Assembly (NCBI GenBank): GCA_964019415.1
Contig: OZ025874.1
Location: 3,268,696-3,332,695 of the forward strand
DNA length: 64,000 nt
Reading direction: 5' to 3'
Origin: Ianthella basta
Lineage: Eukaryota; Porifera; Demospongiae; Verongiida; Ianthellidae
Shown: positions 341 through 31,641 of the stretch, piece after piece
Layout of the letters: each line of letters begins with the position of its first letter
Numbering within the stretch: position 1 is the stretch's first letter
Translations under genes and position numbers: made by a program
The notes under the pieces: model-generated
The model's input: the letters and a program-made list of their open reading frames with translations, nothing else
Databases searched by the model: none
Told to the model about the DNA's origin: nothing

Positions 341-3300
341 ATGAAGCCTCTCCAGGTCCACCTACTGCAGGTATGTGTACTCTGCATCTGGCTGCTCACA
401 TCCAGTACTGGAGCAGATTCCATCAACTACAGAACCATGTGGGTTAGTACAGCAGGAGTGGATAGTCCACGGTGTATACTTGATACACTAGCAAGTGGCC
501 CACTACCCCATCCACACCACACTAATGAAACATGTGGGTCACTGAACTATGCTATTACACACATGACGAATTATACTATCATTCTGATCCTGTGTGGTAC
601 TCACGAACTCAAACCACTTGATGACAGTTCACCAGACAGGAAACCACTGTCAAACATCAAGAGGTTAAGTGTAGTGGGGGAATGTCCAAGTGGATCACCA
701 CAAATTCACTGCACCAACGGAGCAAACTTGGCATTTTACAAAGTTCTGTCATTTGCGATTATGAATTTAACATTCAACAACTGTGGTGAACAGCTACAGT
801 ACAGTGATTCCCTCTCCCGTTCATCAGTGCTGTACATTCAGGACTGCAATACAGTACTGATAGCACATGTTAACATAACTATCACTGGTCCCTATGGAAG
901 AGGCATTTCTTTCATCAGGTACAATCAAACAGCTGCAGATGAACATGTAAAGGTGACATTTCATTTTGTCTCCATATACCATAATGGGTTTCATGGCAGT
1001 GGAATACACTGTGAAATTGTAACAGGTAGTATGGCAACAGGCACACCCTTGCTAGGTGCAAACCTTCAGATGATTCAGCAGAACATTGAAGTTATCAATG
1101 ATAATGCCCATTCCAATAATAGCCTTTCCATTGACTTCACTTGTATCAACGTCACTGTGATAGGAAAAGGAGAGGGTGGTAGAATTTCTCTAAACCATGT
1201 TTCAGTCAACAGAAGCACCACTAGTGGCACTGGCATCTCAATATCTCTGCTAGACAATGTAAGTAAATTTCAAGTACAGCTCATAGGCTTAGTTGTCACA
1301 GGTGTACGGAAGAAATTGCAAAACAGTAGCAAAGTTGTATTAGCTGTGCCTTCAAATTTTGATTACTTATCCAGTAACACAAAGAGTGCTGCAAACAATG
1401 CCACTGCATGTGCATATTCCGGCATCAAGATTGAACTCAGAAACAATTCAAAAGACAACCACATAATAGTTGGAGAGGTTCATGTATTGCATAGAAAGGG
1501 TGTCACTCCAGGCAGTGCATTCTCCATTGAAGTCACAGATCAATCAGAGGGAAACATGTTTTGGCTACAGGGAATCTGGTTAGCACAGTTGATGAGCTCC
1601 AGCATCTCCAATGCAGACAGAAGAGGATTACAAATAAGATTTACTGAAATGGCAAGGAGAAATGTAATACAGGTGGATCACTTATGGTCTTTATCTCATA
1701 GAGCATATTGTGGTGGTGGAGTATATGTAGAATTCATTGGGAAAACAATGGCAAATTTGGTAGAACTCAGTGTAAGCGTTTTTCAACATAACCATGCCTT
1801 CAGAGGTGGCAGTCTTGCTGCAGTGTACAAGGACTTTGCTGCACAGAATGTAATCAAGTTAGACAATGTAACTGTCAGTGGTAACTTTGCAGAACTGGGT
1901 GGTGGATTCTATCTCATCCTGCAGGATTCCTCAAGCAAGAACACCATTGTTCTCGCAGACATGAAGGTTCTCAACAACATTGCACACTGTGGAGGAGGCA
2001 TGTTCATTCACTTTCAGGAAACATCAGTAGCAGGCAAAGTTGAAATTTTTGGTGGCTATATGATGAACAATACCCTACTCCCATCAGAGAAACATGACAT
2101 GATGGGTGGAGGTATTCATGTGGAGTTCTCCACTGTCAGTGCCACTTTCAGGACAGACAACACTGTCAATATTACATCTCACGGTCTATACTTCAATACT
2201 GCAATGCATGGAATTGGCGGTGGAGTATCTGTACTGTACAAACACTCACATTACCAAGGTGACAATGGAGATGCTGTGTGGTTGGAACAATTATTTATGA
2301 TTGGCAACAGGGCTATAAGTGGAAGTGCATGTGCCTTCTAGTCACTTCCTACTCATGGGAAGAGGCTGTTCAGAGGTGTCAGAATAATTAATACTCTTGT
2401 ACTTCATACTGCTTCTGTTTCTGTGAGTTTGATCAACAAGCATCTACCACAGCTGTTTATGACTTTCGATTCCTTCATTTCTCACTTATATGATCCATCA
2501 GAGGCACTTCTACAGAAGCTGCTATCACAACCCATCAACCCTTCATTTCAGGTAAAAACCAATACAAACATGATTTCTGTAAAATCAGTACATATAGAAA
2601 TAGAAAAATTTAACATAGCATGTGAAACTACATCACAGGGAATATACTCACTAGACTCAGAAATTGTGGTGCAGGGAGATACAATGTCAATGGTGGCATT
2701 CTGTGTTGCTACCCATGGTGGTGCTATTGCTCTGCATGGAGAGAGTCGCATTACACTCAGAAGAAATGCAGGTTTAATACCCTTTAAAAACCGTGCTTTC
2801 CATCGAGGAGGGGCCATCTATGTCAGCTCTGCACCTGGCATGGTACCAGTGTCAAATTGCTTCTTCCGAGGAGAAATTGGCAGTGTGCTTGCTGTTATTG
2901 CCAACTCAGCCAATGCCGATGGACAGTCAGCTTATGTATCAGATATTAGAAACTGTCTCTACCACCAAAGCATATGGAAGTATGCTGCCAACTATGCACC
3001 GCCTTGGTTCATCCAATTAAATCGAACCATGGAATTTGAGTTGTTTACAGGATATGATATTTTTAATGAAGACAAGCCAATCACCGTGGTAATGTCTGGT
3101 CCCAGCCATGTCGCCAGTACCCTTGTCAATGCGGACAAATCATTGACCATACCCTTCATCCCTGGCAAACAGAAGAGACTTCCCTACACTCATGCATATG
3201 ATGCATTTGGCAATAATATTAGTTCAGTGTTCGCAGTACAGATTAACAAGATGGATACCTCACTACCTGTGGAAATGAATCTTTTCTCAAAGTACACTGC

Positions 3301-5221: not shown

Positions 5222-5712
5222 TGATTCATCATGTGGAATAATTGCTAGCATAAGTACTGTATATAGGTAGTTGACCATGCAGTTTGTTATATTAGCATCC
5301 ATACTTATTATGGTTCACTTATGAATAATTATATAATTTATGTTGTGAAAGATAGCTTATCCATGTACATAGCTCCATATAGCACTTGCATAATTATTAC
5401 AGATGCAATTCAATATCAAGAACACAATTTTTCAAGCTTGTAATGTTTAGTAGCTAGAGCAACTAATATGAACATAATTTATAGTATTATTATTGCATAA
5501 TGGATATAGGATCACATGCAGAACAAAATAGGCATTGCATCCAAATTATATTAAATTTACTTCAAAAACAATTATTGCTATTTGACTTACTGAAGTGTAA
5601 TTGCGAAATAAAAACTACACAAACAGCACACAAAACAAAATTATGTCTCAAATGTGTAAGTCAACACAACACTGCCACAGTTCAGTTCGGTTGTTGGACA
5701 TTGACAGTGCAG
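5222..5712. other. 3' flank of R1
   Basis: AT-rich DNA that is nearly identical to 17716-18400 downstream of R2 and recognisably similar to 31642-32274 downstream of R3. The R2 copy carries an extra 235-bp insertion (17993-18227). No gene seen; it should include the 3' UTR of R1. Confidence 0.6.
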
Positions 5713-5806
5713 TCACTTTGCTTTCCTCTTTGAGCTCTTCTTGCAACAATCTGGACAGAACCAGGGAACATCGTCAGGAGGAGGCTTTTCTAGTCCAACA
5801 CACACC
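5713..5806 (-). pseudogene. Orphan copy of TAF3 exon 8 (C-terminal half of PHD finger)
   Basis: Read on the minus strand, a CTGCAG acceptor precedes an open exon encoding VCVGLEKPPPDDVPWFCPDC followed by a lysine-rich tail and TGA. It is almost the same as the true last TAF3 exon at 32275-32368. The zinc-binding CPDC pair and the acceptor are intact. It lies tail-to-tail with R1 just as the real exon does with R3, so it was copied along with the receptor gene. No other TAF3 exons except a truncated exon 7 (6136-6199) are nearby. Confidence 0.85.
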
Positions 5807-6135
5807 CTGCAGGTGGGAGGGGACACATCAGGCGTTGTATGTGTAATGAGGATATAATACGTGTAGCTATGGCATGTGTGTGTTGTGTGTATGGTGTGTA
5901 CTGTAAGTGTGCTTGTATGCCTGTATGTTATAATACACGTGTGTGTGTGCACGTGTGTTTGTGCAGACACACGTGTGCGACTGCACATGCTGATTGCTGT
6001 ATGACCATGGGTATGGGCACATGGGTGTGCATATTCTCATAGTGGGTGGATGGGTGGGTGTCCTTTTGTTCCTTGTATGTGAGGTGGTGTGTCTGCAGAG
6101 CATGTGCTACAAAGGTATCACAGGACTACACTTAC

Positions 6136-6199
6136 CAGTGGAACCACCTGTCATCACAGCGGTCACATGCCACCATTGGTCGGCCATCATCTGGCGGAT
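6136..6199 (-). pseudogene. Truncated orphan copy of TAF3 exon 7
   Basis: Minus-strand homology to the 3' half of TAF3 exon 7 (VACDRC ... WFHW) with its GTAAGT donor kept. Similarity stops abruptly near 6199, so the first zinc-ligand pair (CPVC) is lost. A TG-rich tract between it and the exon 8 copy corresponds to TAF3 intron 7. Confidence 0.8.
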
Positions 6200-6291
6200 T
6201 CTAATAATAATAATTCTAATACCCATGTAATAATATAAAATATAATTGTAATTGGCTTAAAACCAGTAACTATCAGTATGTTTTAGCATGT

Positions 6292-8586
6292 ATGCAAGTC
6301 AAAGCACACCTGCAGTGAATGCTGCTATGATGGTGCTAACATTGACACATTGTCTCCCTGCCCCCTAACTGATCCACCTTGCAACACCTATGTACAATTA
6401 TGCAATTTCACTTGTCACCTGTACATACATGAAGGCGTACGAACAATATAATTACTCATTCATGTACATTCATGTAAGTATACACACAAATGAATGCACA
6501 TGAACAGTTAATGTCTACCTCTCCTGCTCAAATCTAGGGGACCCCTTAGCTGCACGAATGTATTGTAGGCTAGGGTTCCCCAACCAGCTACCTACCAAAT
6601 TGTCTACCTAGCCCTATATTTAGAAGAAGCATGGTACCAGATTGGAACCTTGCCTTTTGTTAAAGGTGTGATATCCAGATGTGGCCTTTGACCTTTGACC
6701 TTTGACCTCTGCGCTCTGCGTAGTGATTAATATAACTTAGAAGCCACACCTGGAAGAGACCCACCACCCTTTCACGCTTTGTGAGAAAGCAGAGACAACC
6801 ATAAAATAAAGCATGTGAGCTGGGTCATAGATGAATGAGATGGGGTGAAGAGTGAGAGCATGCAAGTGAGTAAAATGATGGGTAGAAATACTGCTACCCA
6901 TACTACTATTGCAAAACGATACAAAAAAAACCCTGTCAATGTGCAGAGGGAGCACGAGGCAAGTGTTGCGCATGTGCAGAGCCCTGCGACATGGTCTGAC
7001 GTGCCTCACGTGCGCAACGCAGCTAGCCATGTTGTATATACTGACGAAGCTCCCGAGTTACGCTGTTAACTACGTTCAACCAGGGTTAAACTACATGCAA
7101 ACACACTGCAGCCATGGAACAGTGATTAGTATATGTGGCATGACCAGTGCACACATGGTTCCACTGTGTGTACAGAATCAAACTGCACACCACACAGACT
7201 GCATGTATGGGCATTCATTACAACACTATATTGTGCATGTATATTGAATAACAGAAAGTTGCACAATAGAACAAACTAGGGTTCAAGTTCATTTGTTCAG
7301 TTAATAAAGGTGATTGTACAGTTGTCTTTCATATCACCAGTGAATAGACAATAGCACAATACAATAGTTAATATATACAGTTTCAAGTTTATAGTGTCAC
7401 AATGCATGTTAATTCATTCAGTAAATATATATAGGTACATGTCAATGAATTTAAACCGACAGACAAGTCAATTAAAGTCAGACAAGTCAATTAGGTCATG
7501 TACATCTGGGACAAGCCTGGATGCAGCTGCAAATAATACTGCCGATGCTTTGCTAAAGACCATGAATAACATAAAGTATAGTAGAGACCATGAGTATTAT
7601 AGAATGTGGTGGCACATATTCAAGTCAGGTATGCTATGTACTGTACAGTATTAGCTGTATAGCATATTTAAACCTGGTCCAGGAATCGCATAGATAACAT
7701 TATGTCTATATACAGAGGTCACCTGATAGGTCAACAAGCATAGCAATCTGGTATATTGTACACAATGGAGATGCTAGCAACTAGCTCCTTCAGCCCAGTG
7801 CATACACATGTCCCCCAAATACCAAGGACAAGTTTATCTCACTGGTGGATGCAACAACAGCTGTAATACCTTGGAACTGACAGTCACAATACCTTACATA
7901 TGCATGATAAGGAACAGGGTGGCATGAGCAATTATCATGCTTGCACATGCACTGGCCATGGTTGTATACTCAACTGCTATTAGCCATATCATATTAACTT
8001 CCACATAATTATATTGCTCATTTGTGTCACTGAGAGTCTTATCACCTGCGCTGTGTGTGAATAAAACGTATACTGTACAAGTGACTCAACTATTGGTACA
8101 TACAGATTCTAATTATTATCCAAGTAATTGGCCATGGCTTGAAACCAGTAACTAGCATCATGTTTTAGCCTGCAGCTGCCCCATGTATGCAAAAATATAT
8201 AATTACTATACTGTATACCGTATACGCTTTAACATTCATGTGGTTAAACGTTCGTGGATTTTGCTATGATATGTATGTATACACGGCTTTTGTGAGATGG
8301 GGTCACATACTGTACACAATCATAGATTATTATATTGTAATTGGTATTTGTATACAAATCAAGTATACCTGCTGTTAATGCTGCAGTAGAGGTGGTGTTT
8401 GGCACATTGCCTCTCCTCCTCTCTACCTGATCCACCCTTGCAATGCAACAACCGTGCAAGTGTCACCTGACAGGCTATGCATGAAGGTGTACTACAATAA
8501 TTATGTGTTCATTTGCATTGGTATGAGAACACACATTATGAATGTACACATGCACACAGGTATACACTACAGCCAACAGAGTACAG
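6292..8586. repeat. Duplicated non-coding block, copy 1
   Basis: Closely matches 18993-21069 downstream of R2 over its whole length, apart from a deletion of about 200 bp in the latter near 19890. It contains recurring submotifs found many times in 6-25 kb, such as CTGATCCACCCTTGCAA and TTAATAAAGGTGATTGTAC. The submotifs recur within the block, so it is itself built of older tandem units. No coding capacity recognised; the short reading frames here are not conserved between the copies. Confidence 0.75.
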
Positions 8587-9910
8587 CATGGCCGGCGCCA
8601 GTAGTCCGGCAGGTCCGGCATTTGCCGGACCACTTTTCAGGCTAAACTCCAAAAAAGTTAAACTGAAATAACTAGCAAGTACACAAAATGTGAATTGTGT
8701 GAATTGCCTGAATGAGCTTACCTGATTTTTTAATAACTAGAAGCATTGAAGGTACATATTTTACTTCTAAGTAATTTGAATGTCCATTTTCAAGGGGAAA
8801 CATAACCAATTACCGACGAGGTGTCCAAAAGCGCCATCTTATGAGCCAGCCATGTGATATAAGATTGCGCAACCACCCTCGTGATACAGGCCTCAAGGTT
8901 TAATTGTTTCCGGCTTTGTTCGTTCGGTTTGTTCAGCGCTGGAGTCAACCTCGGCGTCGCAGATGGCATTGCCACCTTCTCCTCACCAACCGAAACACTT
9001 TGTCTTCCCCAAGAGATCTTTTGGGAAGAAATCAATCGAAGAGCGTACTTTCCGAGCTGCATGGTTCGACAAATGGTCATGGCTACATTACAACGAAACA
9101 GACGACTATGTCTTGTGCCACGTCTGTGCTACAGCTTTCCAGGAGGGAAAGTTGAAGGAATCAGCTGCCGACGCTTTTGTTTCTAAGGGATTTACAAACT
9201 GGAAAGATGCTACTGTTGCATTTCAACGCCACCAGCAGACGAAATGTCACAAGGACGCGGTTGACATAGTTGTCACTATCCCCTCAACAACAAAAGATGT
9301 TGGAGAGCTCTTGTCTAGAGAGCACGCAAAAGAGAAGGAGATTAATAGAAGAATGTTTGTGAAAATTGTTACATCAATCAAGTATTTGGCCAGGCAGGGG
9401 ATTAGCTTGCGGGGTGATGGAGATGAAGAAGATGGCAACTTCATGCAACTGCTGAGACTTAGAGCAGATGATGACCCTGACCTTGTTGCATGGCTTCAGT
9501 GGAAACAGAATAAGTACACGTCTCATGAAATTCAAAATGAAATTTTGAAAACCATGGCCATATCTGTCTTGAGGAACATTGCCAGTTGTCTTCAAAGCTC
9601 ACCCTTCCTCACTTTGATGATGGATGAGACAACTGATGTGCCAAGTTCGGCTGAACAACCTTTTGCTGTTGCATGTCCATAAGAACTGTACTGACTCCCT
9701 AGATGCACACATAGTTGGCAATGATTTTGTTGAAGGGTCAGAACACAGACTACGAGTCTTTGGAAAGTTCTAATTATTATTTCAGTACTGTAATATTTTA
9801 TATACAGACTCAATACATTACTCTGAGAGTAATGTATTGATTATATTTATTGACTTGCAAGTTTTCATCCATTTTTGCCGGACCACCCGGAAACTGCTTG
9901 CTCCGGGCCT
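8587..9910 (+). mobile_element. Internally deleted hAT-type DNA transposon
   Basis: A 1,324-bp segment interrupts a duplicated block exactly where the paralogous block (about 21069) is continuous. GTACAG flanks it on both sides (8581-8586 and 9911-9916) and occurs once (GAGTACAGTATG) at the empty site. The ends are imperfect inverted repeats rich in CCGG: left GGCCGGCGCCAGTAG and TTGCCGGACC, right the complement of GGTCCGGCAAAAATGG and GGCCCGGAGCAAGCAG. It carries the N-terminal part of a hAT/ZMYM1-like transposase. At 9805-9836 there is a short perfect hairpin near the right end. Clear six-base duplication only; a full 8-bp hAT duplication would need two mismatches. Confidence 0.8.
8963..9682 (+). 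pseudogene. Truncated hAT/ZMYM1-like transposase
   Basis: 239-aa reading frame. An early segment has a TTF/BED-like zinc-finger pattern (C-H-V-C about 50 residues in, then H-x5-C-H). This is followed by the helical region typical of this transposase group and the motif LMMDETTD, which in hAT transposases holds the first catalytic Asp. Family members run to roughly 600-800 aa; here the frame ends shortly after that motif and the remaining catalytic domain is missing before the right inverted repeat, so the element cannot move by itself. Confidence 0.8.
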
Positions 9911-12296
9911 GTACAGTATGTATATAAAATGAACAGTGCACGGCTCCACAGTGCTGTGTATATATAAAATAGAATCAAAACTGCACACATGCACAACACA
10001 TGCACAACTATTGACTCCATGTATTCAATATACATTGTGTGTCCAACACTATTGCACAAGCCATTGAATAACAGAAAGGTGCACTATTGAATGAACTAAG
10101 GTTCAATTTTGTTATGAAGACCTTCTATTGTGTCATCAATAAAGGTGATTGTACAGTTGTTGTGCATGTGTGTGCGTGTGTGAGTGTGTGTGTATGTGCG
10201 TGTGTGTGTATGTGCATGTGTGTGTGCATGTGTGCATGCGCATGTCGCTGCGCATATTTTTTGTAGTGGGTGGATGGATGGGTGTGCTTTGTTCCTTGTA
10301 TGTGAGGTGATGTGAAGTGGTGTGTCTGCAGAGCATGTGTTACAAAGATATCACAGCAATACACTTACCAGTGGAACCACCTGTCATCACAGTGGTCACA
10401 TGCCACCATTGGTCGGCCATCATCTGGCTGATTGCACACAGGACAGTAGTACACCAGAGGGACATCAGTGGATTGAGAAACAGGCAGCTGCAGGGAATGT
10501 TGCATCTATATCATTGGGGTGGATGGAGGCAACAGCATTGCATCACCATCAATCCAACATTGCCTTAGCATACAAGCCACACCATGCATACTAGGCTGCT
10601 TGGAGGTGATTGATGACTCCTTAGATAGACTCATGTACTGCAATTAACTCATTCAAAGCTGAAAGTCTAAAGATCTATAGGTAGTTACAAGATGCAGACC
10701 TGTCAGTCTGTACTCATGCAGAACCTGACAGGTCAACAAGTGTAGCAATCTGGTACATGTCAGTGTATATTCATGATGGAGATGCTAGCAGCTCCCAAAC
10801 ACCCAAAACACGTTTGCCCCACTAGTGGATTCAACAATAACTGCAATACCTTAGAATCCTGCATGATAAAGAACAGGGTGGCATGAGCAATTAGACTGCA
10901 CATTCACTGGCTGTACATTTACCCACAATTAGCTACAGTAATAGCCTCCATGTTATGTGTTCATGTGAGTAGAACTTTATCGCCTGTATTGTGCATGAAA
11001 TAGCTGTACATTGTACAAGTGGTTGAACTATTAGTACATCCGGATTCTAATAGCCATGTAATAAGTTTGGAACCAGTATGCATTATAAAATGTTCATACT
11101 GCACATACATACATGCTATACATGTGTAATGTGGGGTCACAACCACATAGGCATTAGTGCATGTATGCAAACCAAAGCACACCTGCAGTGACTACTGCAA
11201 TAGATGGTGCTAACATTGACACATTGCCTCCTGTCCTCCCTAATATAACTGATCCAACCTTACAACATCTACGTATAATTATGCCATTTCACTTGTCACG
11301 TACGTACATACATGAAGGCGTATGTACAATACAATTATTCATTCATGTATATTCATGTGCATTGCCACTCTTCCTCTCTAACTAACATGGCTAACTGATC
11401 CACCCTTGTAAGAACAACGTATAATTATGCAATTTCACTTGTGCACCTGTACATACGTGAAGGAGTACTTATACAATATAGTTATATGCATTCATGTGCA
11501 TTCATGTGAGTATGCACACAAATGAATGCACATGATCAGGAAAACACTGCAGCCATGAAACAGAGATTAGAATGTGGCATGATCAGTGCACACATGGTTA
11601 CACTGTGTGTACAGAATCAAACTGCACACCACACAGACTGCATGTATGGGCATTCATTACAACACAATATTGTGCATGTATATTGAATAACAGAAAGTTG
11701 CACAATAGAATGAACTAGGGTTCAAGTTCATTTTGGAGACCTTTCTATTGTGCAGTTAATAAAGGTGATTGTACTGTTGTCTTTCATATATCACATGTGA
11801 ATAGACAATAGCGGCACAATACTATAGTTTTACAGTTTCAAGTTTACAACGTCATGCACAGTGCATTATTGTTCATTCAATGATGTAATGTGTACATGTC
11901 AATGAATTTGAACCAACAGACAAGTCAATCAGGTCAAGTACGCCTGCATGTGACAAACACGGATGCAGCTGCAAATGTGGCCTATTACGCATAGATGCTT
12001 TGCTGAAGACAATGAAGTAAAGTAGAGACCATGAATATTAGAGTATGTGGTGACTCATATCCAACGAAATACTGCCTATCTTATTAATTAATTGCAGCAT
12101 ACAAGTCAGTTATTTGTGCTTCTACTGCCTGCATTTTAATTAATTATTTGTCATCCCCTGACCGCTGACATTCTACGCACTATACAGTACAGCATATTTA
12201 AACATGGTCCAGGAATTGCATAGTTAACAGCATTACATACGTCACTATAATAATAATACTAATTTCCTGTGCATATATAACCAGCTGCATGTTACC

Positions 12297-12299: not shown

Positions 12300-12336
<37 letters not shown>
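12300..12336. repeat. (AT)n microsatellite
   Basis: About 37 bp of uninterrupted AT dinucleotide between the duplicated block and the R2 promoter region. Confidence 0.95.
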
Positions 12337-12339
<3 letters not shown>

Positions 12340-12491
12340 TAATATAATATACACTTTGTACAAACTACCATATTATATAGGAAGTGCTGTAATTCAGTAG
12401 CAACAATGAAAATTCATAGCTATTCAGCCATTTGACAAGGTCATAATCAATGTTTGCCCTAGATAAAATACCATATTTGCAACTTGCATTG

Positions 12492-12816: not shown

Positions 12817-12849
12817 GCCCACCTACATCTGATCGAGGGTTTGAGCACA

Positions 12850-17715: not shown

Positions 17716-17992
17716 TGATTCATCATGTGGAATAATTGCTAGCATAAGTACTGTATATAGGTAGTTGACCATGCAGTTTGTTATATCAGCATCCCCATAC
17801 TTATTATGGTTCACTTATGAATAATTATATAATTTATGTTGTGAAAGATAGCTTTTCCATGTACGTAGCTCCATATAGCACTTGCATAATTATTACAGAT
17901 GCAATTCAATATCAAGAACACAATTTTTCAAGTTTCAGAACTTGTAATGTTTAGTAGCTAGAGCAACTAATATAAACATAATTTATAGTATT

Positions 17993-18227
17993 GTAGTTCA
18001 GAGAGGGAACTCGGCATCAGTGCTGGGGACCACTGGCCGGCTGCTTGGTCAGGACTTCCTTTTTTAACTAGCTAACTAGCCAACAGTGAAGCATGACCAT
18101 TACTTTATTAGGCATGCATAAGTAATACAGTATCTAAAAATATCTAAAAATATTAAATTATTTTTCTCCTGTCGCCTCTTTTCTTTAAGTTGTGAAGGTA
18201 CAATTACAATACATTTGAAAAAAAATT
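17993..18227. mobile_element. SINE-like retroposed insertion
   Basis: 235 bp present downstream of R2 but absent from the equivalent place downstream of R1 (near 5485). It is flanked by an 11-bp direct repeat, TTTATAGTATT (17982-17992 and 18228-18238), and ends in an A-rich run just before the right copy. Target duplication plus A-rich end and a non-coding body point to a short retroposon. The 5' part is GC-richer than the surroundings; I did not identify clear tRNA A/B boxes. Confidence 0.65.
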
Positions 18228-18403
18228 TTTATAGTATTATTATTGCATAATGGATATAGGATCACATGCAGCACAAAATAGGCATTGCATCCAAATTATA
18301 TTAAATTTACTTCAAAAACAATTATTGCTATTTGACGTACTGAAGTGTAATTGCGAAATAAAAACTACACTTACTACTACAGTTCAGTTCATTGACAGTG
18401 CAG

Positions 18404-18497
18404 TCACTTTGCTTTTCTCTTTGAGCTCTTCTTGCAACAATCTGAACAGAACCAGGGAACATTATCAGGAGGAGGCTTTTCTAGTCCAACACACACC
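18404..18497 (-). pseudogene. Orphan copy of TAF3 exon 8
   Basis: Minus-strand copy equivalent to 5713-5806 and 32275-32368, with acceptor, open frame and TGA kept. Substitutions change DDVPWFCPDC to DNVPWFCSDC, leaving the zinc ligands intact. It was duplicated with R2. Confidence 0.85.
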
Positions 18498-18627
18498 CTG
18501 CAGGTGGGAGGGGACACATCAGGCGTTGTGTGTGTGATGAGGATATAAGACATGTAGCTATGGCATGTGTGCATGTGTTGTGTGTATAGTGTGTAAGTGT
18601 GCTTGTATGCCGGCTGCTATAGTGCAC

Positions 18628-18728
<101 letters not shown>

Positions 18729-18881
18729 CATGTGTGCATTACTGTATGACCATGGGTATGGGCACATGGGTGTGCATATTATTAGAGTGGGTGGATGGAT
18801 GGGTGTGGTTTTTGGTCAGGTGATGTGAGGTGGTGTGTCTGCAGAGCATGTGTTACAAAGGTATCACAGCACTACACTTAC

Positions 18882-18991
18882 CAGTGGAACCACCTGTCAT
18901 CACAGCAGTCACATGCCACCATTGGTCGGCCATCATCTGGCTGATTGCACACAGGACAGTAGTACACCAGAGGGACATCAGTGGATTGAGA
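18882..18991 (-). pseudogene. 5'-truncated orphan copy of TAF3 exon 7
   Basis: Minus-strand open segment covering YYCPVC to WFHW with the GTAAGT donor kept. It loses homology at 18991, before the acceptor. CDRC has become CDCC. It pairs with the exon 8 copy at 18404-18497. Confidence 0.8.
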
Positions 18992-21462
18992 ATGTAGGCA
19001 AGTCAAAGCACACCTGCAGTGAATGCTGCTATTGGTGGTGCTAACATTGACACATTGCCTCCCTGCCCCCTAACTGATCCACCCTTGCAACACCTATGTA
19101 CAATTATGCAATTTCACTTGTCACCTGTACATACATGAAGGAGTACGTACAATATAATTACTCATTCATGTACATTCATGTAAGTATACACACAAATGAA
19201 TGCACATGAACAGTTAATGTCTACCTCTCCTGCTCAAATCTAGGGGACCCCTTAGCTGCACGAATGTATTGTAGGCTAGGGTTCCCCAACCAGCTACCTA
19301 GCAAATTGTCTACCTAGCCCTGTATTTAGAAGAAGCATGGTACCAGATTGGAACCTTGCCTTTTGTTAAAGGTGTGGTACCGGATGTGGCCTTTGACCTT
19401 TGACCTCTGCGCTCTGCGTATTGATTAATATAACTTAGAAGCCACACCTGTAAAGGACCCACCACCCTTTCACGCTTTGTGAGAAAGCAGAGACAACCAT
19501 AAAATAAAGCATGTGAGCTGGGTCATAGATGAATGAGATGGGGTGAAGAGTGAGAGCATGCAAGTGAGTAAAATGATGGGTAGAAATACTGCTACCCATA
19601 CTACTATTGCAAAACAATACCAAAAAATCCTGTCAATGTGCAGAGGGAGCACGAGGCAAGTGTTGCGCATGTGCAGAGCCCTGCGACATGGTCTGATGTG
19701 CATCACGTGCGCAACGCAGCTAGCCATGATGTATATACTGACGAAGCTCCCGAGTTACGCTGTTAACTACGTTCAACCAGGGTTAAACTACATCCAAACA
19801 CACTACGGCCATGGAACAGTGATTAGTATGTGGCATGACCAGTGCACACATGGTTCCACTGTGTGTACAGAGTCAAAACTGCACACCACACCACACAATA
19901 CAATAGTTAATATATACAGTTTCAGGCTTACAGTGTCACAATGCACGTTAATTCATTCAGTAATTATATATAGGTACATGTCAATGAATTTAAACCAACA
20001 GACAAGTCAATTAAGGTCTGCCGATGCTTTGCTAAAGACCATGAATAACATAAAGTATAGTAGAGATCATGAGTATTATAGAATGTGGTGGCACATATTC
20101 AAGTCAGGTATGCTATGTACTGTACAGTATTAGCTGTATGGCATATCTAAACCTGGTCCAGGAATCGCATAGATAACATTATGTCTATATACAGAGGTCA
20201 CCTGACAGGTCAACAAGCGTAGCAATCTGGTACATTGTACACAATGGAGATGCTAGCAACTAGCTCCTTCAGCCCAGTGCATACACATGTCCCCCAAATA
20301 CCAAGGACAAGTTTATCTCACTGGTGGATGCAACAACAGCTGTAATACCTTGCAACCGACAGCCACAATACTTTACATATGCATGATAAGGAACAGAGTG
20401 GCATGAGCAGTTAGCATGCTTGCACATGCACTGGCCATGGTTGTATACTCAGCTGCTATTAGCCATATCATAATAACTTCCACATAATTATAATGCTCAT
20501 TTGTGTCACTGAGAGTCTTATCACCTGCACTGTGTGTGAATAAAACGTATACTGTACAAGTGACTCAACTATTGGTACATACTGATTCTAATAATTATCC
20601 AAGTAATTGGCCATTGCTTGAAACCAGTAACTAGCATTATGTTTTAGCCTGCAGCTGCCCCATGTATGCAAAAACATAAAATTACTATACTGTATACCGT
20701 ATACGCTTTAACATTCACGTGGTTAAACTTTTGCGGTTTTCGCTATAATATGCATGTATGTATACACGGCTTTTGTGAGATGGGGTCACATACTGTACAC
20801 AATCATAGATTATTATATTGCAATTGGTGTTTGTATACAAATCAAGCACCTGCTGTTAATGCTGCAGTAGAGGTGGTGTTTGGCACATTGCCTCTCCTCC
20901 TCTCTACCTGATCCACCCTTGCAATGCAACAACCGCGCAAGTGTCACCTGACAGGCTATGCATGAAGGTGTACTACAATAATTATGTGTTCATTTGCATT
21001 GGTATGAGTACACAAATTATGAATGCATGCAGATGCACACAGGTATACACTACAGCCAACAGAGTACAGTATGTATATGACATGAACAGTGCACAGCTCT
21101 ACAGTGCTGTGTATATATAAAATAGAATCAAAACTGCACACATGCACAACAAATGTACAACTATTGACTCCATGTACGGGCATTCAATATACATTGTGTG
21201 TCCAACACTATTGTGCATGCACATTGAATAACAGAAAGGTGCACTATTGAATGAAATAGTGTTCAATTTTGTTATGAAGACCTTTCTATCGTGTCATCAA
21301 TAAAGCTAATTGTACAGTTGGCGCGTGTGTGCGTGTGTGCATGTGCATGTAGGCTTGCATATGTTTTGTAGTGGGTGGATGGATGGGTGTGCTTATATTT
21401 CTCATATGTGAGGTGGTATCTTCAGAGCATGTGTTACAAAGGTATCACAGCACTACACTTAC

Positions 21463-21581
21463 CAGTGGAACCACCTGTCATCACAGCGGTCACATGCCAC
21501 CATTGGTCGGCCATCATCTGGCTGATTGCACACAGGACAGTAGTACACCAGAGGGACATCAGTGGATTGAGAAACAGGCAG
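21463..21581 (-). pseudogene. Orphan full-length copy of TAF3 exon 7
   Basis: Minus strand: CTGCAG acceptor, open 119-nt exon, GTAAGT donor, with CPVC, CDRC and WFHW all preserved. It is the best-kept of the extra exon 7 copies. It lies about 10.7 kb downstream of the TAF3 stop in the direction of TAF3 transcription, and its phase fits TAF3 exon 6. Confidence 0.85.
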
Positions 21582-23076
21582 CTGCAGGGAATGTTGCATC
21601 TATATCATTGGGGTGGATGGAGGCAACAGTATTGCATCACCATCAATCCAACATTACCTTAGCATACAAGCCATACCATGCATACTAAGCTGCTTGGAGG
21701 TGATCGATGACTCCTTAAATAGACTCGTGTACTGCACCTAACTCATTCAAAGCTGAAAGACTGAAGAGGGGGTATAGGTAGAGTATAGGTCTATAAGTAG
21801 TAACAAGGTGCAGACCTGTCAGTCTGTACTCATGCAAAGGCTGACAGGTCAACAAGTGTAGTAATTTGACACATGTCAGTGTATATTTATGATGGAGATG
21901 CTAGCAGCTCTCCAACCACCCAAAACATGTTTGTCCCACTAGTGGATTCAACAACTGCAATACCTTGGAATCCTGCATGATAAGGAACAGGGTGGCATGA
22001 GCAATTAGACTGCACATTCACTGGCTGTACATTTACCCACAATTAGCTACAGTAATAGCTTCCATCATTATGTGTTCATGTGAGTAGAACCTTATCGCCT
22101 GCATGTATTGTGCGTGAAATAGCTGTACATTGTACAAGTGGTTGAACTATTAGTACATATACTGATTCTAATGGCCATGTAATAAGTTTGAAACCAGTAC
22201 TTTAGTATGTTTTAACTTGTCCCTGTACGCATTATGAAATGTTCATACTGTTACCTTATGTTATACATGTGTAATGTGGGGTCACAACCAAATAGGCATT
22301 AGTGCATGTATGCAAACCAAAGCACACCTGCAGTGACTACTGCAATAGATGGTGCTAACATTGACACATTGCCTCCTGTCCTCCCTAATATAACTGATCC
22401 AACCTTACAACATCTACGTATAATTATATGCCATTTCACTTGTCACCGGTATGTACATACATTGGTGTATGTATATACAAGTCAAGCATACCTGCTGTTA
22501 ATGTTGCAGTAGAGTGCTTGACACATTACCTCCCTTCCTCTCTAGTTGATCCACCCTTGCAACAACCACACAAATGTCACCTGTACATGAAGGCATACGT
22601 ACAGTAAATATGTGTTCATGTGCATTAATACGAATACACACATTATAGGAATGCACACACACAGGTATACGCTACAGCCAATAGTGTACAGTATGTGGCA
22701 TGACCAGTGCATGGCTCCACAATGCATGCAGAATTATGCTGTGCATATATAAAATAGAATCAAAACTGAACACATGCACAACTATTGACTCCATGTATGG
22801 GCATTCAATATACATGTGTGTCCAACACTATTGTGCAAGCCATTGAATAACAGAAAGGTGCACTATTGAATGAACTAGGGTTCAATTTTATTACGAAGAC
22901 CTTTCTATTGTGTGATCAATAAAGCTAATTGTACAGTTGGCCTGTGTGTGCATGTGTGCATGTGCATGTAGGCATGCATATGTTTTGTAGTGGGTGGATG
23001 GATGGGTGTGCTTTTATTTCTCATATGTGAGGAGATGCCTGCAGAGCATGTGTTACAAAGGTATCACCGAACTACA

Positions 23077-23103
23077 CCAGTGGAACCACCTGTCATCACA
23101 GTG
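23077..23103 (-). pseudogene. Remnant of a further TAF3 exon 7 copy
   Basis: Only about 27 bp of the exon's 3' end remain; the donor has been lost by a small deletion and the 5' side joins unrelated GGAGGAGGG sequence that resembles the DNA 5' of the true exon 7 (about 32910-32930). Confidence 0.6.
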
Positions 23104-24895
23104 GATTGGGGAGGAGGGAGGTACCAGTATTGCATCAACATCAATTCCACATTACCTTAGCATACAGGGTGAATACTGGGCTGTTTGGAGGTGATGACTC
23201 CTCAAATAGACTCATGTATTGCACCTAACTCATTCAAAACTGAAAGACTGAAGATGTACAGGCAGTGGTGGGATGCAGACTTGTCAGTCTATACTCATGT
23301 AAGGCTGACAGGTCAACAATTAAGTGTAGCAATCTGGCACATAGTATTATATGTTTATCTCACTGGTGGATTCAACAACAACTGCAATACCTTGGAATTC
23401 TGCATGATAAGGAACAGGGCGGCATGAGCAATTAGATTGCACATTCACTGGCTGTATATACATTCACCTGCAATTTGCTATAGTACTAGCTTTCATAATA
23501 ATTAATTGTGTGTTCATGTTTGGAGAACCTTATTACCTATATATATTGTGCATCAAATAGTTATACATTGTACAATTAGCTGAAGTATTTAGTTTATTTA
23601 TAGTATATTTATCTTACGGATTCTAATATCCATGTAATTGGTTTGGAACCAGTAACTATCAGTGTGTACATTTTAGCTTGTCCCATGAACACATTTATGT
23701 TCATACTGTTACCTTATACTATTCATGTGTATATAATGTGGGGTTATCCACGTAGATATTGATGCATGTATGCTAATCAAAGCACACCCGCTGTGAATGC
23801 TGCTATAGATAGTGCTAAAATTGACACATTGCCACTCTTCCTCCCTAACTAACTGATCCACCCTTGCAACAACAACGTATAATTATGCAATTTCACTTGT
23901 GCACCTGTACATACGTGAAGGAGTACTTATACAATATAGTTATGCATTCGCGTGCATTCATGTGAGTATGCACACAAATGAATGCACATGAACAGGCAAA
24001 CAATGCAGCCATGGAACAGTGATCAGTATGCGGCATGACCAGTGCACACATGGTTCCACTGTGTGTACAGAGTCAAAACTGCACGCCACACAGACTGCAT
24101 GTATGGGCATTCATTACAGTGTACAGCACTATAATGTGCAGGTATATTGAATAACAGAAAGTTGCACAATAGAATGAACTAGGGTTCAAGTTCATTATGG
24201 AGACCTTTCTATTGTTCAGTTAATAAAGGTGATTGTACTGTTGTCTTTCATATCACCAGTGAATAGACAATAGCACAATTAAGACTATTATTTTACAGTT
24301 TCAAGTTTACGATGTCATAGTGCATGCACGACTGTTCATTCAGTGATGTATAGGTACATGTCAATGAATTTGAACAAACAGCAAGTCAATCAGGTCATGT
24401 ACATTTGCAACTGACATTGATGCAGCTGCAAATATGGCTAGTAAAGAATGATGCTTTGCTGAAGACCATGAATATTACAAAATGTGGTGGATGCCATGAT
24501 GAATCTTCCATATTGTGGTGGATCCAACAAATATAATATACACAATTATAGTAGAGACCAAGAATATTACAGGATGTGGTGGCATATATTCAACAAAAAT
24601 TCAATAATGCCAATCTTGCAGCAAGTCAGATATTTGTCCTTATACTGCCTGCATCATAATTAACTCATCATCCCCTGGCTGTATACTTACATGCTACGTA
24701 CTGTAGAGTTTTAGTTGTAAGGCATTTACTCAAACCTGGTCCAGAATCACACAGATAACAATATTATGCCTGCAGAGGTCACTATGATAGTAACAGAAAT
24801 TTTCTGTGCATATATATAATTATGTAATATATATAGACCTCTTGAAGGGGCTGTATTAGGTGATATTTCCCGAGGCCGAAGGCCGAAGGAACACA

Positions 24896-26769: not shown

Positions 26770-29700
26770 ATGAAGCCTCTCCAGGTCTGCCTACTGCAGG
26801 TATGTGTACTCTGCATCTGGCAGCTCACATCCGGTACTGGAGCAGCTTCCACTGACTACAGGACCATGTGGGTTAGCACAGCAGGAGTGGATAGTCCACA
26901 GTGTATACTTGATACACTAGCAAGTGACCCACTACCCCATCCACGCCACACTAATGAAACATGTGGGTCACTGAACTATGCTATTACACACATGACAAAT
27001 TATTCTATCATTCTTGTTTTGTGTGGCACTCATGAACTCAAACCACTTGATGCCAGTTCACCAGACAGCACACTATTGTCAAACATCAAGAAGTTAAGTT
27101 TAGAGGGGAATTGTTCTATTGGACTTCCACAAATTCACTGCACAAATGGAGCAAACTTGGCATTTTACAAAGTTCAATTACTTGGGATTGAGAAATTAGC
27201 ATTCAACAACTGTAGTGAACAGCTACAGTACAGTGATTCCCTCTCCCGTTCATCAGTGCTGTACATTCAGGACTGCAATACAGTACTGATAGCACATGTT
27301 AGCATAACTATCACTGGTCCCTATGGAAGAGGCATTTCCTTCATCAGGGACAATGAAACAGTTGCAGATGGGGATGTACGGGTGAGATTTGATTTTGTCT
27401 CCATATACCATTATGGGTTTCATGGCAGTGGAATACACTGTGAAATTGTAACAGGTAGGGCAACAAGCACATCCTTGCCAAGTGCAAACCTTCAGATGAT
27501 TCAGCAGAACATTGAAGTTATTAATGCTAATGCCCATTCCAACAATAGCCTTACCATTGGCTTCACAGGCATCAACATCACTGTGATGGGAGATGGAGAG
27601 GATGGTAAAATTTCTCTAATCAATGTTTCTGTCAACAGAAGCACCACTAGTGGCACTAGCATCTCAATATCTCTGCTAGACAATGTAAGCAACTTTCAAG
27701 TACAGCTCATAGGCTTAGTTATCACAGGCAAACGGAAGAAACCGCTAATCAGAACGAAAGTCGTTTTTGTTACAGCCTCACATTTTGATTACTTATCCAG
27801 TTATGCCAAGAGTGCTGCAAACAACACCAATGTGTGTACATATTCCTATATCAAGATTGAACTCAGAAACAATTCAAAGGACAACCGCATACTAATTCAA
27901 GATGTACGGGTTATGCACAGAAGTGGCATCACTCCAGGCAGTGCATTCTCTATTGAAGTTACAGATCATTCAGAGGGAAACAGTATTTGGCTACTAGATA
28001 TATGGCTAGTACAAATGAAGAGCTCCAGCATCTCCAGTGCACACAGAAGAGGACTACAAGTAATACTTACTAAAATGGCAAGGAAAAATGTAATATGGGT
28101 GGATGACTTATGGTCTTACTCTCACAGAGCATATTGTGGTGGTGGAGCATATGTTGAATTCAGTGGAAAAGCAATGGTGAATTCGGTGGAATTCAGTACA
28201 AGCATTTTTCAACAAAACCATGCCTTCAGAGGTGGCGGTATTGCTGTAGTGTACAAGGACTTTGCCACACAGAATGTAATCAAGTTAGACCATGTAGCTG
28301 TCAGTGGTAACTTTGCAGAACTGGGTGGTGGGGTCTATCTCATCCTGCAGGATTCATCAAATGATAACACCATTGTTCTCACTGATACAGAGGTTACCAA
28401 CAATGTTGCGCACTGTGGAGGAGGTATATTCATTCGCTTTCAGGAAACATCAGTAGCAGGCAATGTTAAACTATGCCGAGGTTATCTAATAAACAATACC
28501 TTACTCCCATCAGAGAAGCATGACATGATGGGTGGAGGTGTCCATGTGGAGTTCTCCACTGTCAGTGCCACTTTCAGGACAGACAACACTGTCAATTTTA
28601 CATCTTATGATTTTTACTTTAATGCCGCAAGCCATGGAATTGGCGGGGGTATATCTGTACTCTACAAACACTCACGTTACCAAGGTGATAATGGAGATGC
28701 TGTGTGGTTGGAACATTCACTTTTGTTCGGCAACAAGGCTGTAAGTGGAAATGCGTGTGCCTTCCAGTCACTCCCTACTCATGGGAAGAGGTTGTTCAGA
28801 GGCGTCAGAATAACTGATACTCTTGTATTTTATAGTACTGCTGATTCTGACAGTTCAATCATTAAAGAGCTATCACAGATGACGGATTCCAACTATTATG
28901 TCCTAATTGAAATATCTAAGGCTCTTCTAAAGAAGCTGCTATCACTACCTATCAACCCTTTGGTTCAGGTGCAAGCCAACACAAACATGATTCTTGTAAA
29001 ATCAGTACAGATGTTAGCAGATGACTTATACATCTTGTGTAGAACTGCCTCACAGGGAATATACTCACTAGACTCAGAAATTGTGGTGCAGGGAGATACA
29101 ATGTCAATGGTGGGATTCTGCGTTGCTACCCATGGTGGTGCTATTGCTCTGCATGGAGAGAGTCACATCACAATGTCACCAAATGCAGGTTTAATACCCT
29201 TTGGAAACCATGCTTTCCATCGAGGAGGGGCCTTGTATGCTACCTCTGCACCTGGTGTGGTACCAGTATCAAATTGCTTCTTCCAAAGTGAAATCGGCAG
29301 TGTGCTTCTTGTCAATAGTAACTCAGCCAATGCTGATGGACACTCAGCTTATGTATCAGATTTTAGAAACTGCCTCTACCGCCAAAGCATATGGAAGTAT
29401 GATGCTAACTATGCACCGCCTTGGTTCATCCAACTAAATCGTACACTTGATAAACAAGAGTTTATTTATTATGATATTTTTAATGAAGACAAGCCAACCA
29501 CTGAGGTAAGGACTGCTCCCTATCATGTCGCCAGTACCCCAGTCAATGTGGGCAAATCATTGACCATACCCTTCATCCCTGGCAAACAGAAGAGACTTCC
29601 CTACACTCATGCATATGATGCATTTGGCAATAATATTACTTCACTGTTCACAGTACAGATTAACAAGATGGATACCTCACCACCTGTAGAACTGAATCTT

Positions 29701-31641
29701 TTCTCAAAGTACACTGCTGACTTTACAGTCATCCTCCATGGCATTCCACTGCAGCATGGCATTACCAAACATTCCTTTCCTAACACATCTGCAATAATTC
29801 AAACTCCTCAGTTGGTTCTGCAGTCAGTAGACAACATAGATCTACTCCTGGTGATGAACACTGAGCTCCAGTGTTGTCCTCCTGGATACATCTTTCGATA
29901 TGGCTCAGGAGATATGGGAACATGTCACTGTGGAATGCCCAGTGTGACTGGGATAGCAAAATGTATTAATGACGATAAAGAGATGGTTGCTGTCTTGAAG
30001 AGAGACCACTGGGCTGGATATCTACCATTCCATGACCAACACAGCTGTGATGGACAGAAGTTCTTCACTGGACAATGCCCTCCAGGTTATTGTCAAACAC
30101 AAACAATCACCCTTCCACAGAACAACTCTCAGCAAGAGCTCCAAGATCTGATGTGTAATGGATCTAACAGAAAGGGAATCCTCTGTGGAGACTGCCTTGA
30201 AGGGAAAGGCATTGCGGTGAACTTCAATGGGATAAGACCAGTGTGTGTCAGTTGTGAGGAAGGGCTCAGTAAAGTGGGCATTCTTGTGTGGATCCTGAGT
30301 GAGTGGATGCCCATGCTTGCCTTCATGCTTGTCTTGATGCTCTTCAACATTGATCTAGTGTCAGGAAATTTCAACTCATTTCTGCTGTTTGCCCAACTCC
30401 TGGCTTTCTCCACCATCAGAGGTGATGCTGAATTGGGACCAGTGCACAATGCATTTGTCAGGATATACCGATTTCTGTATGGCATGTGGAACCTAGACTT
30501 CTTTGGTGTGCTCCTCCCCCCGTACTGCCTTGCCCCACATGCCCATCTCACCCTGCTACAGACACTCCTTCTGCACTACTCCATTGGACTGTTCCCACTG
30601 ACAGTGGCCATCACACTCACTGTTCTGGAGAGGTCAGCAGAGAAATGGATATGCTGTCATCGAGTGGACCAGTGCCTCAGGAGAATGCGACGATGGAAGG
30701 CAAAGTATTCAGATGGCATGTCATACGACAGAGCACTTCCTGCCTTTGTCATTCTTGGATTCAGTCGCTTCCTGGTCAGCTCCTCTTACATTCTTGTCCA
30801 CCAGAATATCATAGGGGACGGTGGAGAGGGGAGGAAGGTGGTGTGGTGGCAGGGCTCTGTACCCTATGGCTCCATCCAACACATTGCCTACTTCATACCA
30901 GCCATTATCATATTGCTGGTGTTTGTCCTTCTACCCTCCTTTCTTCTCCTCACTCTTCCCATTGTGCCTCAGCTGTTTGGTAGACTCCTCATAGCTGTGC
31001 CACCATTGAGGAAACTGCAGAGGATGCAGACATTCTGCAGCAATGTCTACACTGACAGATGGGTATACCACTTTGTCAATGTATTGCAAGGTTGCTACCA
31101 AGAACACTTCAGAAGCTTTTCTTCCCTCTACCTATTCCATCGCATTGTCCACCTGCTTGTGGCCACGTTCATACCCAGAACAGAAGATGCTCTTCGCACA
31201 CAGATCTTCCTTACTGTGGCCTTGCTGCTACTCATTGCTGCCTGCCAGCCCTACAATTCACACAGACTCAACACTTTGGATGCAGCCATCCTTGGTAACC
31301 TGGCCCTCATCCTCATCCTGAGTCTTCACATAACTGATCGCAACACACCCATTGAGACAAGACAGTTCTTTGCTTCCCTCCAGATGATCCTCATCTACCT
31401 ACCCCTCCTGTATCCTGGCATTCTACTTGGAAGAAAGGTGTACCTGAAGTGCAGACAGTTGAGATGCTGCCAGAAACAGGAAGAAGAAAGAGAAGATAAT
31501 GTTGAGCCACTTTTGGAAGCGCCAGCAGAGAGACTTGGGAACCTTGTTCTAATAACAGAACTGCGTGCTGGAGTGCCTACCTCAGAGGATGATGATGATA
31601 CAGTGACTCCTACTGAGACAGAGACTGAAACATACAACTAG
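26770..31641 (+). CDS. Receptor R3: intact giant multi-pass membrane protein
   Basis: 1,623 aa from ATG 26770, same architecture as R2: signal peptide to about 25; N-terminal module YRTMWVSTAGVDSPQC ... CGSLNYAI; beta-helix-like ectodomain with GGG turns (HAFRGGGIAVVY, NFAELGGGVYLIL, NVAHCGGGIF); Cys-rich stalk about 1033-1165; hydrophobic segments from about 1170 (VGILVWILSEW) to 1550 (ILIYLPLLYPGILL); acidic tail. One coding exon. Ectodomain segments alternate in similarity: like R2 near residues 110-150 and 390-420, like R1 near 290-330 and 880-920. The gene lies tail-to-tail with TAF3, stops 634 bp apart, an arrangement copied in the R1 and R2 units. Surface recognition or adhesion is a guess from architecture. 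Confidence 0.85.
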   Translation: MKPLQVCLLQVCVLCIWQLTSGTGAASTDYRTMWVSTAGVDSPQCILDTLASDPLPHPRHTNETCGSLNYAITHMTNYSIILVLCGTHELKPLDASSPDSTLLSNIKKLSLEGNCSIGLPQIHCTNGANLAFYKVQLLGIEKLAFNNCSEQLQYSDSLSRSSVLYIQDCNTVLIAHVSITITGPYGRGISFIRDNETVADGDVRVRFDFVSIYHYGFHGSGIHCEIVTGRATSTSLPSANLQMIQQNIEVINANAHSNNSLTIGFTGINITVMGDGEDGKISLINVSVNRSTTSGTSISISLLDNVSNFQVQLIGLVITGKRKKPLIRTKVVFVTASHFDYLSSYAKSAANNTNVCTYSYIKIELRNNSKDNRILIQDVRVMHRSGITPGSAFSIEVTDHSEGNSIWLLDIWLVQMKSSSISSAHRRGLQVILTKMARKNVIWVDDLWSYSHRAYCGGGAYVEFSGKAMVNSVEFSTSIFQQNHAFRGGGIAVVYKDFATQNVIKLDHVAVSGNFAELGGGVYLILQDSSNDNTIVLTDTEVTNNVAHCGGGIFIRFQETSVAGNVKLCRGYLINNTLLPSEKHDMMGGGVHVEFSTVSATFRTDNTVNFTSYDFYFNAASHGIGGGISVLYKHSRYQGDNGDAVWLEHSLLFGNKAVSGNACAFQSLPTHGKRLFRGVRITDTLVFYSTADSDSSIIKELSQMTDSNYYVLIEISKALLKKLLSLPINPLVQVQANTNMILVKSVQMLADDLYILCRTASQGIYSLDSEIVVQGDTMSMVGFCVATHGGAIALHGESHITMSPNAGLIPFGNHAFHRGGALYATSAPGVVPVSNCFFQSEIGSVLLVNSNSANADGHSAYVSDFRNCLYRQSIWKYDANYAPPWFIQLNRTLDKQEFIYYDIFNEDKPTTEVRTAPYHVASTPVNVGKSLTIPFIPGKQKRLPYTHAYDAFGNNITSLFTVQINKMDTSPPVELNLFSKYTADFTVILHGIPLQHGITKHSFPNTSAIIQTPQLVLQSVDNIDLLLVMNTELQCCPPGYIFRYGSGDMGTCHCGMPSVTGIAKCINDDKEMVAVLKRDHWAGYLPFHDQHSCDGQKFFTGQCPPGYCQTQTITLPQNNSQQELQDLMCNGSNRKGILCGDCLEGKGIAVNFNGIRPVCVSCEEGLSKVGILVWILSEWMPMLAFMLVLMLFNIDLVSGNFNSFLLFAQLLAFSTIRGDAELGPVHNAFVRIYRFLYGMWNLDFFGVLLPPYCLAPHAHLTLLQTLLLHYSIGLFPLTVAITLTVLERSAEKWICCHRVDQCLRRMRRWKAKYSDGMSYDRALPAFVILGFSRFLVSSSYILVHQNIIGDGGEGRKVVWWQGSVPYGSIQHIAYFIPAIIILLVFVLLPSFLLLTLPIVPQLFGRLLIAVPPLRKLQRMQTFCSNVYTDRWVYHFVNVLQGCYQEHFRSFSSLYLFHRIVHLLVATFIPRTEDALRTQIFLTVALLLLIAACQPYNSHRLNTLDAAILGNLALILILSLHITDRNTPIETRQFFASLQMILIYLPLLYPGILLGRKVYLKCRQLRCCQKQEEEREDNVEPLLEAPAERLGNLVLITELRAGVPTSEDDDDTVTPTETETETYN

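Follow-up and report, generated by a model that had tools for sequence, protein, structure and literature searches.

The window analysed here is a stretch of 64,000 nucleotides from the sponge Ianthella basta (assembly GCA_964019415.1, contig OZ025874.1, positions 3,268,696 to 3,332,695), which carries a tandem array of three very large receptor-like genes, R1, R2 and R3, together with a relic of a fourth, psiR. The relationships among these copies change along the genes to an extent that exceeds chance. R2 is the clearest mosaic of the array, with a centre that is much older, with respect to R1 and R3, than the ends of R2 and the downstream DNA. We propose, at a probability of about 0.6, that the genes encode germline-diversified recognition receptors, built on a beta-helix scaffold, and have been reshuffled through gene conversion or unequal crossing-over.

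Relationships and silent-site ages along the array

Both R2 (12850-17715) and R3 (26770-31641) are intact single-exon genes on the + strand, of 1,621 and 1,623 codons, respectively. R1 (341-5221, +), also a single exon, has a reading frame of ~1,620 codons with a single in-frame TAG at 2339-2341, and is either a broken gene or a nonsense allele. An earlier sequence-only reading of this DNA had assigned one architecture to all four copies. R1-R3 can be aligned end to end with an amino-acid identity of 79-83%, and psiR (24896 to about 25921, +) is a frameshifted N-terminal relic that covers only the first ~340 codons. The repeat unit of the array, with its intergenic DNA included, measures ~12-14 kb. 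In the assembly searched (209 Mb, 96 contigs), the window lies on the contig that we call C7, and 29 full-length members of the family were read, namely R1-R3 and 26 relatives fetched.

Approximately unbiased (AU) tests, carried out with nine of the 29 genes, join R1 with R3 in residues 250-900 (p-AU 1.0 vs 1e-4 and 1e-5 for the alternatives). In residues 950-1620 the best tree is R2+R3 (0.92), R1+R3 is rejected (0.025) and R1+R2 receives 0.11; the corresponding values for residues 1130-1620 are 0.97, 0.045 and 0.052. Derived states, polarised with the relatives L004-L006 as outgroup, are shared by R1R3, R2R3 and R1R2 at 36, 6 and 10 sites in residues 251-950, and at 6, 14 and 4 sites in residues 951-1621. 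This reversal (36:6 vs 6:14, Fisher p=2.4e-5) takes place mostly past residue 1150, with R1R3:R2R3 counts of 4:4 in 951-1150 and 2:10 beyond. A scan of the partner of R3 also finds a break at 278-954 (p=0.002). Within it, the same scan marks a patch at 382-439 (27/37 vs 106/383, p=0.002), on which we do not rely because it is mostly private to R1 (10 sites, and one R2+R3, with L004-L006; 6 and 5 with a wider outgroup). The psiR relic changes its affinity as well: it goes with R2 in 22 of the 26 informative columns between 818 and 1081, and with R1 in none, while before column 818 it goes with R1 in 6 of 11 and with R2 in 3 of 11 (p=1.1e-4 for the change). Columns after 1081, where homology is doubtful, were left out of these counts.

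The sequence-only reading had based its mosaic on three string comparisons, in which R2 and R3 agree against R1 near residues 110-150, and R1 agrees with R3 near 290-330 and again near 880-920. The three comparisons are present in the sequence, but by themselves they do not prove a changing closest relative. In the second and third patches R1 and R3 do agree; both fit the single R1+R3 tree of residues 250-900, with no switch between them. The first patch (residues 106-250) has 10 sites private to R1, one derived R2+R3 site and three derived R1+R3 sites under the unanimous outgroup L004-L006. There psiR matches R2 and R3 in the quoted string, and the rooted tests of residues 105-250 give p-AU values of 0.80 for R1+R3, 0.29 for R2+R3 and 0.06 for R1+R2. 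We therefore rejected this patch, mostly a private change of R1, as evidence of recombination. The deduction drawn from the strings, gene conversion or unequal crossing-over, is upheld by other evidence: the switch of topology described above, and silent sites that differ in age along single genes. A single consistent tree with uniform purifying selection, which was looked for, does not describe these data.

The shift of age is seen at fourfold-degenerate sites. Between R1 and R2 these differ at 50/196 in the centre (residues 250-920), 30/290 in the transmembrane (TM) half (960-1621) and 7/86 in the N-terminal part (20-250). The values are 51/199, 27/300 and 4/93 for R2 and R3, and 37/230, 26/288 and 5/85 for R1 and R3. 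The divergence of R2 from R1 and R3 in the central ectodomain is 2.5 to 6 times that of the end regions. A scan for silent change-points, run on nine gene pairs, delimits the older segment at residues 381-923 for R1/R2 (0.290 vs 0.094 outside, p=0.004), which correspond to 13990-15618 (+) of R2, and at 498-890 for R2/R3 (0.350 vs 0.079 outside, p=0.002). The pair L039/L040, on contig C15, repeats the pattern of R2 (0.207 in 131-826 vs 0.059 outside, p=0.004), and L007/L011 show a different silent shift, which falls within the TM half (p=0.026). The N-terminal residues 1-250 of R2 (12850-13599, +), signal peptide included, have a fourfold divergence of 0.08 from R1 and 0.04 from R3, as counted over residues 20-250. 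Third-position GC is 0.366 in the N-terminal part, 0.377 in the centre and 0.525 in the TM half; since the first two values are about equal, composition does not explain the silent difference between these two regions. Downstream of the genes, the intergenic DNA 3′ of R1 (5222-12016) is repeated after R2 (17716-24472) and partly after R3 (31795-32942), with Jukes-Cantor (JC) distances of 0.015-0.138 for R1/R2 (five aligned blocks), 0.10-0.22 for R1/R3 and 0.05-0.17 for R2/R3.

Protein architecture and the candidate variable face

A signal peptide occupies residues ~4-22 and, according to hydropathy, 8-10 hydrophobic segments lie between residues ~1156 and 1555. Moreover, 34 cysteines are kept in at least 27 of the 29 family members, and R1-R3 contain 19-25 N-glycosylation sequons, all of them N-terminal to residue 1150. 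These features indicate a large extracellular part, followed by a Cys-rich stalk that leads into a multi-pass membrane module. Residues 960-1621 of R2 (15727-17712, +), which comprise the stalk, the hydrophobic segments and an acidic C-terminal tail, are the most conserved part of the protein, and across the family their mean silent divergence is lower than that of any other region.

In a Pfam scan of seven proteins (R2, R3, L004, L007, L032, L039 and the C-terminal frame of R1), no family exceeded its threshold, a result that includes the signature domains of SRCR, NLR, LRR, Ig and lectin proteins. Nor was the Pfam 7tm family matched in the six full-length members, the R1 C-terminal frame or the distant relative L041; the membrane module may still have a fold like that of G protein-coupled receptors, and its structure prediction was useless (predicted local distance difference test, pLDDT, of 30). 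For the ectodomain, the NCBIfam model TIGR01376 (POMP_repeat, cut-off 15) was exceeded in two of six proteins, L007 (15.9) and L032 (15.2); R2 (14.2), R3 (11.3) and L004 (11.3) fell under it and L039 gave no match. Its Pfam counterpart, Chlam_PMP, scored only 8.2 vs a cut-off of 20.6. R2 carries GGG/GGA motifs at residues 461, 492, 524, 555, 593, 630, 795 and 825. These repeats and a low-confidence structural model suggest that the ectodomain, of ~900 residues, folds as a right-handed beta-helix. Sequence searches of the PDB returned no match for R2, the TM profile or L041, and two PDB matches to the ectodomain profile (E 0.39 and 0.69) were taken as chance.

Selection was analysed with our own grid-based site model, which used 13x13 rates, a fixed kappa of 3 and a separate FastTree tree for each segment; it was applied to 27 genes, after dropping L014 and L019. 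Sites with P(beta>alpha)>0.9 number 15/226 in residues 20-250, 27/218 in 251-480, 23/219 in 481-700, 22/216 in 701-920, 4/321 in 960-1280 and 9/334 in 1281-1615. Simulations under a null in which no site exceeds neutrality, run six times for each of these segments, reached maxima of 4, 1, 2, 9, 1 and 1, so that selection is secure in residues 251-700 and less so in 701-920. In residues 250-870 the excess of replacements recurs every 33 residues (permutation and block shuffle both give p=0.001). In the TM half the selection signal has no period (p=0.19), and the replacement rate alone shows a 50-residue peak with p=0.016 by permutation and 0.50 by block shuffle. The sites called with R1-R3 excluded predict where R1-R3 differ (50/66 vs 204/540).

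When placed on the predicted coils of residues 360-662 of R2 (13927-14835, +), all 30 selected sites fall within two residues of one strand per coil, nine long strands in total. The family shows diversifying selection on one surface, whose exposure is predicted from the same model. Selected sites clustered on one repeated strand with a 33-residue period strengthen the proposal of the sequence-only reading that these are recognition-type receptors, and it is from this pattern that we infer recognition as the probable function.

Size of the family and probable exchange between its members

As a query against its own genome, R2 yields at least 40 matches, the weakest listed with E 3e-87 (29 of 392 candidates scored). 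A query of 126 residues from the membrane module scores at least 150 places among 176 candidates, most of them 83-90% identical. The family forms arrays on contigs C4, C13, C15, C12 and C9, and occurs singly or in small groups elsewhere. By our own reading of the list, which leaves out the rows of C86, split pieces and distant rows of ~30% identity, it would occupy well over 100 places. Internal stops are absent from 24 of the 29 full-length members, and the family shows tandem expansion with many intact copies. R1-R3 and psiR would form a small, peripheral array within a very large family of animal surface receptors. Two distant relatives, L041 (on C7) and L042 (on C10), have the membrane module and a short Cys-rich N-terminus; the stretches fetched contain no beta-helix part. 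No relative was found on the viral contigs searched, and no paper on such a receptor family appeared among the matches listed from the open-licence PubMed Central literature. As a separate observation, part of the C4 array (G000:C4:10882037-10954147) recurs on C86. The copies, two on each contig, score identically and are spaced ~52.9 kb apart in both places, which represents either a segmental duplication of recent date or a haplotype left unmerged.

When the 406 pairs of the 29 genes are grouped by the divergence of their centres, the mean fourfold divergence rises from 0.07 to 0.42 in the centre and from 0.11 to 0.22 in the TM half. In the five closest pairs, pooled, the TM half is the more diverged (162/1459 vs 86/1247 in the centre, p=1.7e-4), a difference present in four of the five pairs, which have genes in common and are not independent. 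This favours exchange of the membrane module among copies over a lower silent rate in the TM half. The pairwise homoplasy index (PHI) detects recombination among nine genes of C13, with p=0.001, 0.004 and 0.004 for the three regions. Silent distances of all regions are intercorrelated in Mantel tests, and on C13 they also correlate with map distance, which is not decisive; for the two halves of the TM part, r=0.72 over 28 genes and 0.27 on C13 alone. L014, which is near-identical to L010, was dropped from the selection, Mantel, GENECONV-like and PHI analyses.

A suggestive case of exchange between chromosomes, or of a translocated mosaic, is L019 (G000:C21:2568787-2576646), a broken copy with five stops. 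Its ectodomain groups with the C13 genes, and grouping with C7 is rejected (p-AU 1e-9 and less). In residues 960-1620 the C13 grouping is rejected instead (p-AU 0.048) and L019 fits with C7 (19 of the 29 genes).

A transposon-like frame lies between R1 and R2 (8963-9682, +), with weak matches to DUF4371 and to a C17orf113-type zinc finger, both under the cut-off. Beyond R3 there is a low-complexity Ser/Lys-rich frame of 765 aa on the - strand (33534-35831), without a Pfam match. The receptor array adjoins a TRAF-like tandem cluster (40738-63739, +) with zf-TRAF and MATH domains and, by eye, a RING-like N-terminus; two of its copies (46304-47752 and 60102-61538) are 94% identical, the first with an in-frame stop near 46670. 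Tandem kinase arrays were seen in the same assembly and, with the TRAF-like cluster, suggest a sponge. Wnt genes, which mark the genome as that of an animal, gave 34 matches, several of them in tandem on C16 and C7, as in the array G000:C16:1991483-2026924, with several copies within ~35 kb.

Competing explanations and wider meaning

In the explanation that we prefer, each receptor would consist of a signal peptide, a beta-helix ectodomain of ~900 residues, a Cys-rich stalk, a membrane module of 8-10 passes and a short acidic tail. One beta-strand per coil would form the outer face; this face diversifies under positive selection, as the site model indicates, and therefore probably contacts variable partners, among which microbial surface molecules or self/non-self markers are candidates. 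The genes would be reshuffled in the germline as tandem copies undergo gene conversion or unequal crossing-over, a process that the topology switch and the silent-age shift point to. Such reshuffling would keep the membrane module alike, and would leave or place central ectodomains of different age in different copies.

Several results weigh against this explanation. Some of them concern the exchange between copies found in the family: a GENECONV-like test on silent columns gives no globally significant tract (best p=0.085), and neither the full set of 28 genes nor C7 plus L004-L006 gives a significant PHI, perhaps because of saturation or few sequences. Four of the six gene pairs outside C7 have no significant change-point. 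Invariant fixed fourfold codons make up 32/120 in the TM half vs 2/44 in the centre, together with the third-position GC of 0.525 vs 0.377, and codon constraint with a few fast sites may partly mimic a low TM silent divergence. The upstream flanks are not young (JC 0.20 for R1/R3 over 336 sites, 0.37 for R2/R3 over 452, and 0.43 for R1/R2 over 61). As regards the topology, R1+R3 is still the best tree in residues 900-1130, with no significant difference (p-AU 0.85 vs 0.17 for R2+R3), and residues 1-250 do not separate the three trees (0.79 for R1+R3, 0.30 for R2+R3 and 0.16 for R1+R2). As regards the scaffold, the beta-helix model has a mean pLDDT of 32.6 and was built from two sequences, and a Foldseek search with it found no match at E<=0.001.

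A plain birth and death of copies, where one tree ((R1,R3),R2) with uneven constraint and positive selection would suffice and no exchange took place, accounts for some of these results. The R1+R3 tree is the best one for residues 250-1130, the first quoted patch is mostly a private change of R1, the PHI test of C7 plus L004-L006 is not significant, and R1/R3, in a further point against exchange, show no significant silent change-point (p=0.19). However, such a history clashes with a silent divergence that varies ~2.5- to 6-fold along the pairs involving R2, and with a C-terminal half that favours R2+R3, rejects R1+R3 (p-AU 0.025) and reverses the shared-derived counts, so that it is already disfavoured and we regard it as improbable. 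Still more doubtful is a targeted hypermutation, in which the centre or its exposed strands mutate faster. The centre has the higher silent divergence in most pairs, and two findings that also count against our explanation point in the same direction: the silent rate, too, rises every 33 residues, in step with the replacement rate and much more weakly (power 11.7 vs 33.3), and fourfold differences reach 0.369 on the long strands vs 0.331 elsewhere (p=0.03 per residue, same-residue codons). Yet the five closest pairs, when pooled, show less silent divergence in the centre than in the TM half, the opposite of what faster mutation of the centre predicts, and mean beta/alpha is 1.98/0.73 at selected sites and 0.42/0.64 elsewhere, so the mild silent rise is far too small for the replacement signal.

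The origin of the R2 centre bears on a stronger contender, which we hold to be possible at rather less than even odds. Old central alleles, maintained by balancing selection, would have been placed in tandem copies by unequal crossing-over between haplotypes, with no conversion between paralogues. The greater age of the centre with respect to the ends and the downstream DNA agrees with this, and R1-R3 form a clade, with respect to the 26 sampled relatives, in each of the seven segment trees as well as in the full-length tree. Moreover, and also against our explanation, the assembly provides no close donor: the best place outside C7 for residues 826-959 is 58% identical, and the best match outside C7 for the whole of R2, the query that covered residues 381-825, reaches 69% among the candidates scored. 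The monophyly and this 58% rule out an import from the sampled paralogues of C13, C15 or C21, and the older centre does not therefore come from a sampled paralogue. However, these observations would be explained equally well if the donor copy had been lost or if a member of the array had escaped sampling. The centre of R2 comes from a lost or unassembled copy, or from another haplotype, or else it is the original one, with the ends overwritten.

A different alternative concerns the function of the variable face, which could serve homophilic adhesion or self/non-self recognition rather than the recognition of microbes, by analogy with the pairing of Ag43. According to PMC8993888, the beta-helices of Ag43 associate in a head-to-tail manner by means of polar residues, and their variants differ in strength; PMC5450542 describes a repeatable specificity of sponge grafts, which it attributes to a polymorphic genetic system. 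A family of 100 or more genes in several arrays, however, exceeds the needs of a single compatibility locus, and we consider this alternative less likely than not.

The preferred explanation, a reshuffled family of recognition receptors, finds a close parallel in LRR receptors, such as the VLRs of lampreys and hagfishes or the plant LRR-RLK and RLP families. These also have solenoid ectodomains in which the exposed residues of one repeated strand diversify, and they also form multigene families with exchange between copies. The pattern seen here may work like that of LRR recognition receptors on a different scaffold: a beta-helix-like coil of ~33 residues with GGG motifs and no Pfam LRR match, joined to a multi-pass membrane part, with no kinase domain seen and with germline diversity. 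A second likeness is to POMP/Chlam_PMP proteins, whose recurring GGG/GGA-x-hydrophobic motifs, mostly every 30-38 residues, are found here too, and whose TIGR01376 cut-off L007 and L032 exceed. The present family differs in being eukaryotic and in having a multi-pass membrane module in place of the autotransporter barrel, and R2, R3, L004 and L039 stay under that cut-off. The known right-handed parallel beta-helix proteins (RbmB, PfbA, tailspikes, Ag43 and polygalacturonases) are enzymes and adhesins, mostly microbial, with Foldseek E-values that are not significant and no sequence relatives in the PDB. Among animals, Botryllus fester and FuHC, Hydractinia Alr, the sponge aggregation factor and the sponge SRCR and NLR families are likewise diverse recognition or immune families, some of them clustered. 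However, they use Ig-like, Sushi, Wreath/Calx-beta, SRCR and NACHT domains, none of which was matched in the seven Pfam-scanned proteins.

Sponges and other early animals discriminate between self and non-self, and live with dense microbial communities. We tentatively suggest, at odds a little short of even, that an early-branching animal has 100 or more germline recognition receptors made of a beta-helix solenoid and a multi-pass module, and not of Ig, LRR or SRCR domains, with one diversifying strand face, and with an exchange that homogenises the membrane module while differently aged ectodomain cassettes are kept. If this is true, the family would add a new class to the receptors of animal immunity or allorecognition, and the beta-helix would join the short list of scaffolds used for variable recognition. 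The family offers a mapped candidate binding face, concrete genes and 72 residues (P>0.9 in 250-870) that can be put to the test.
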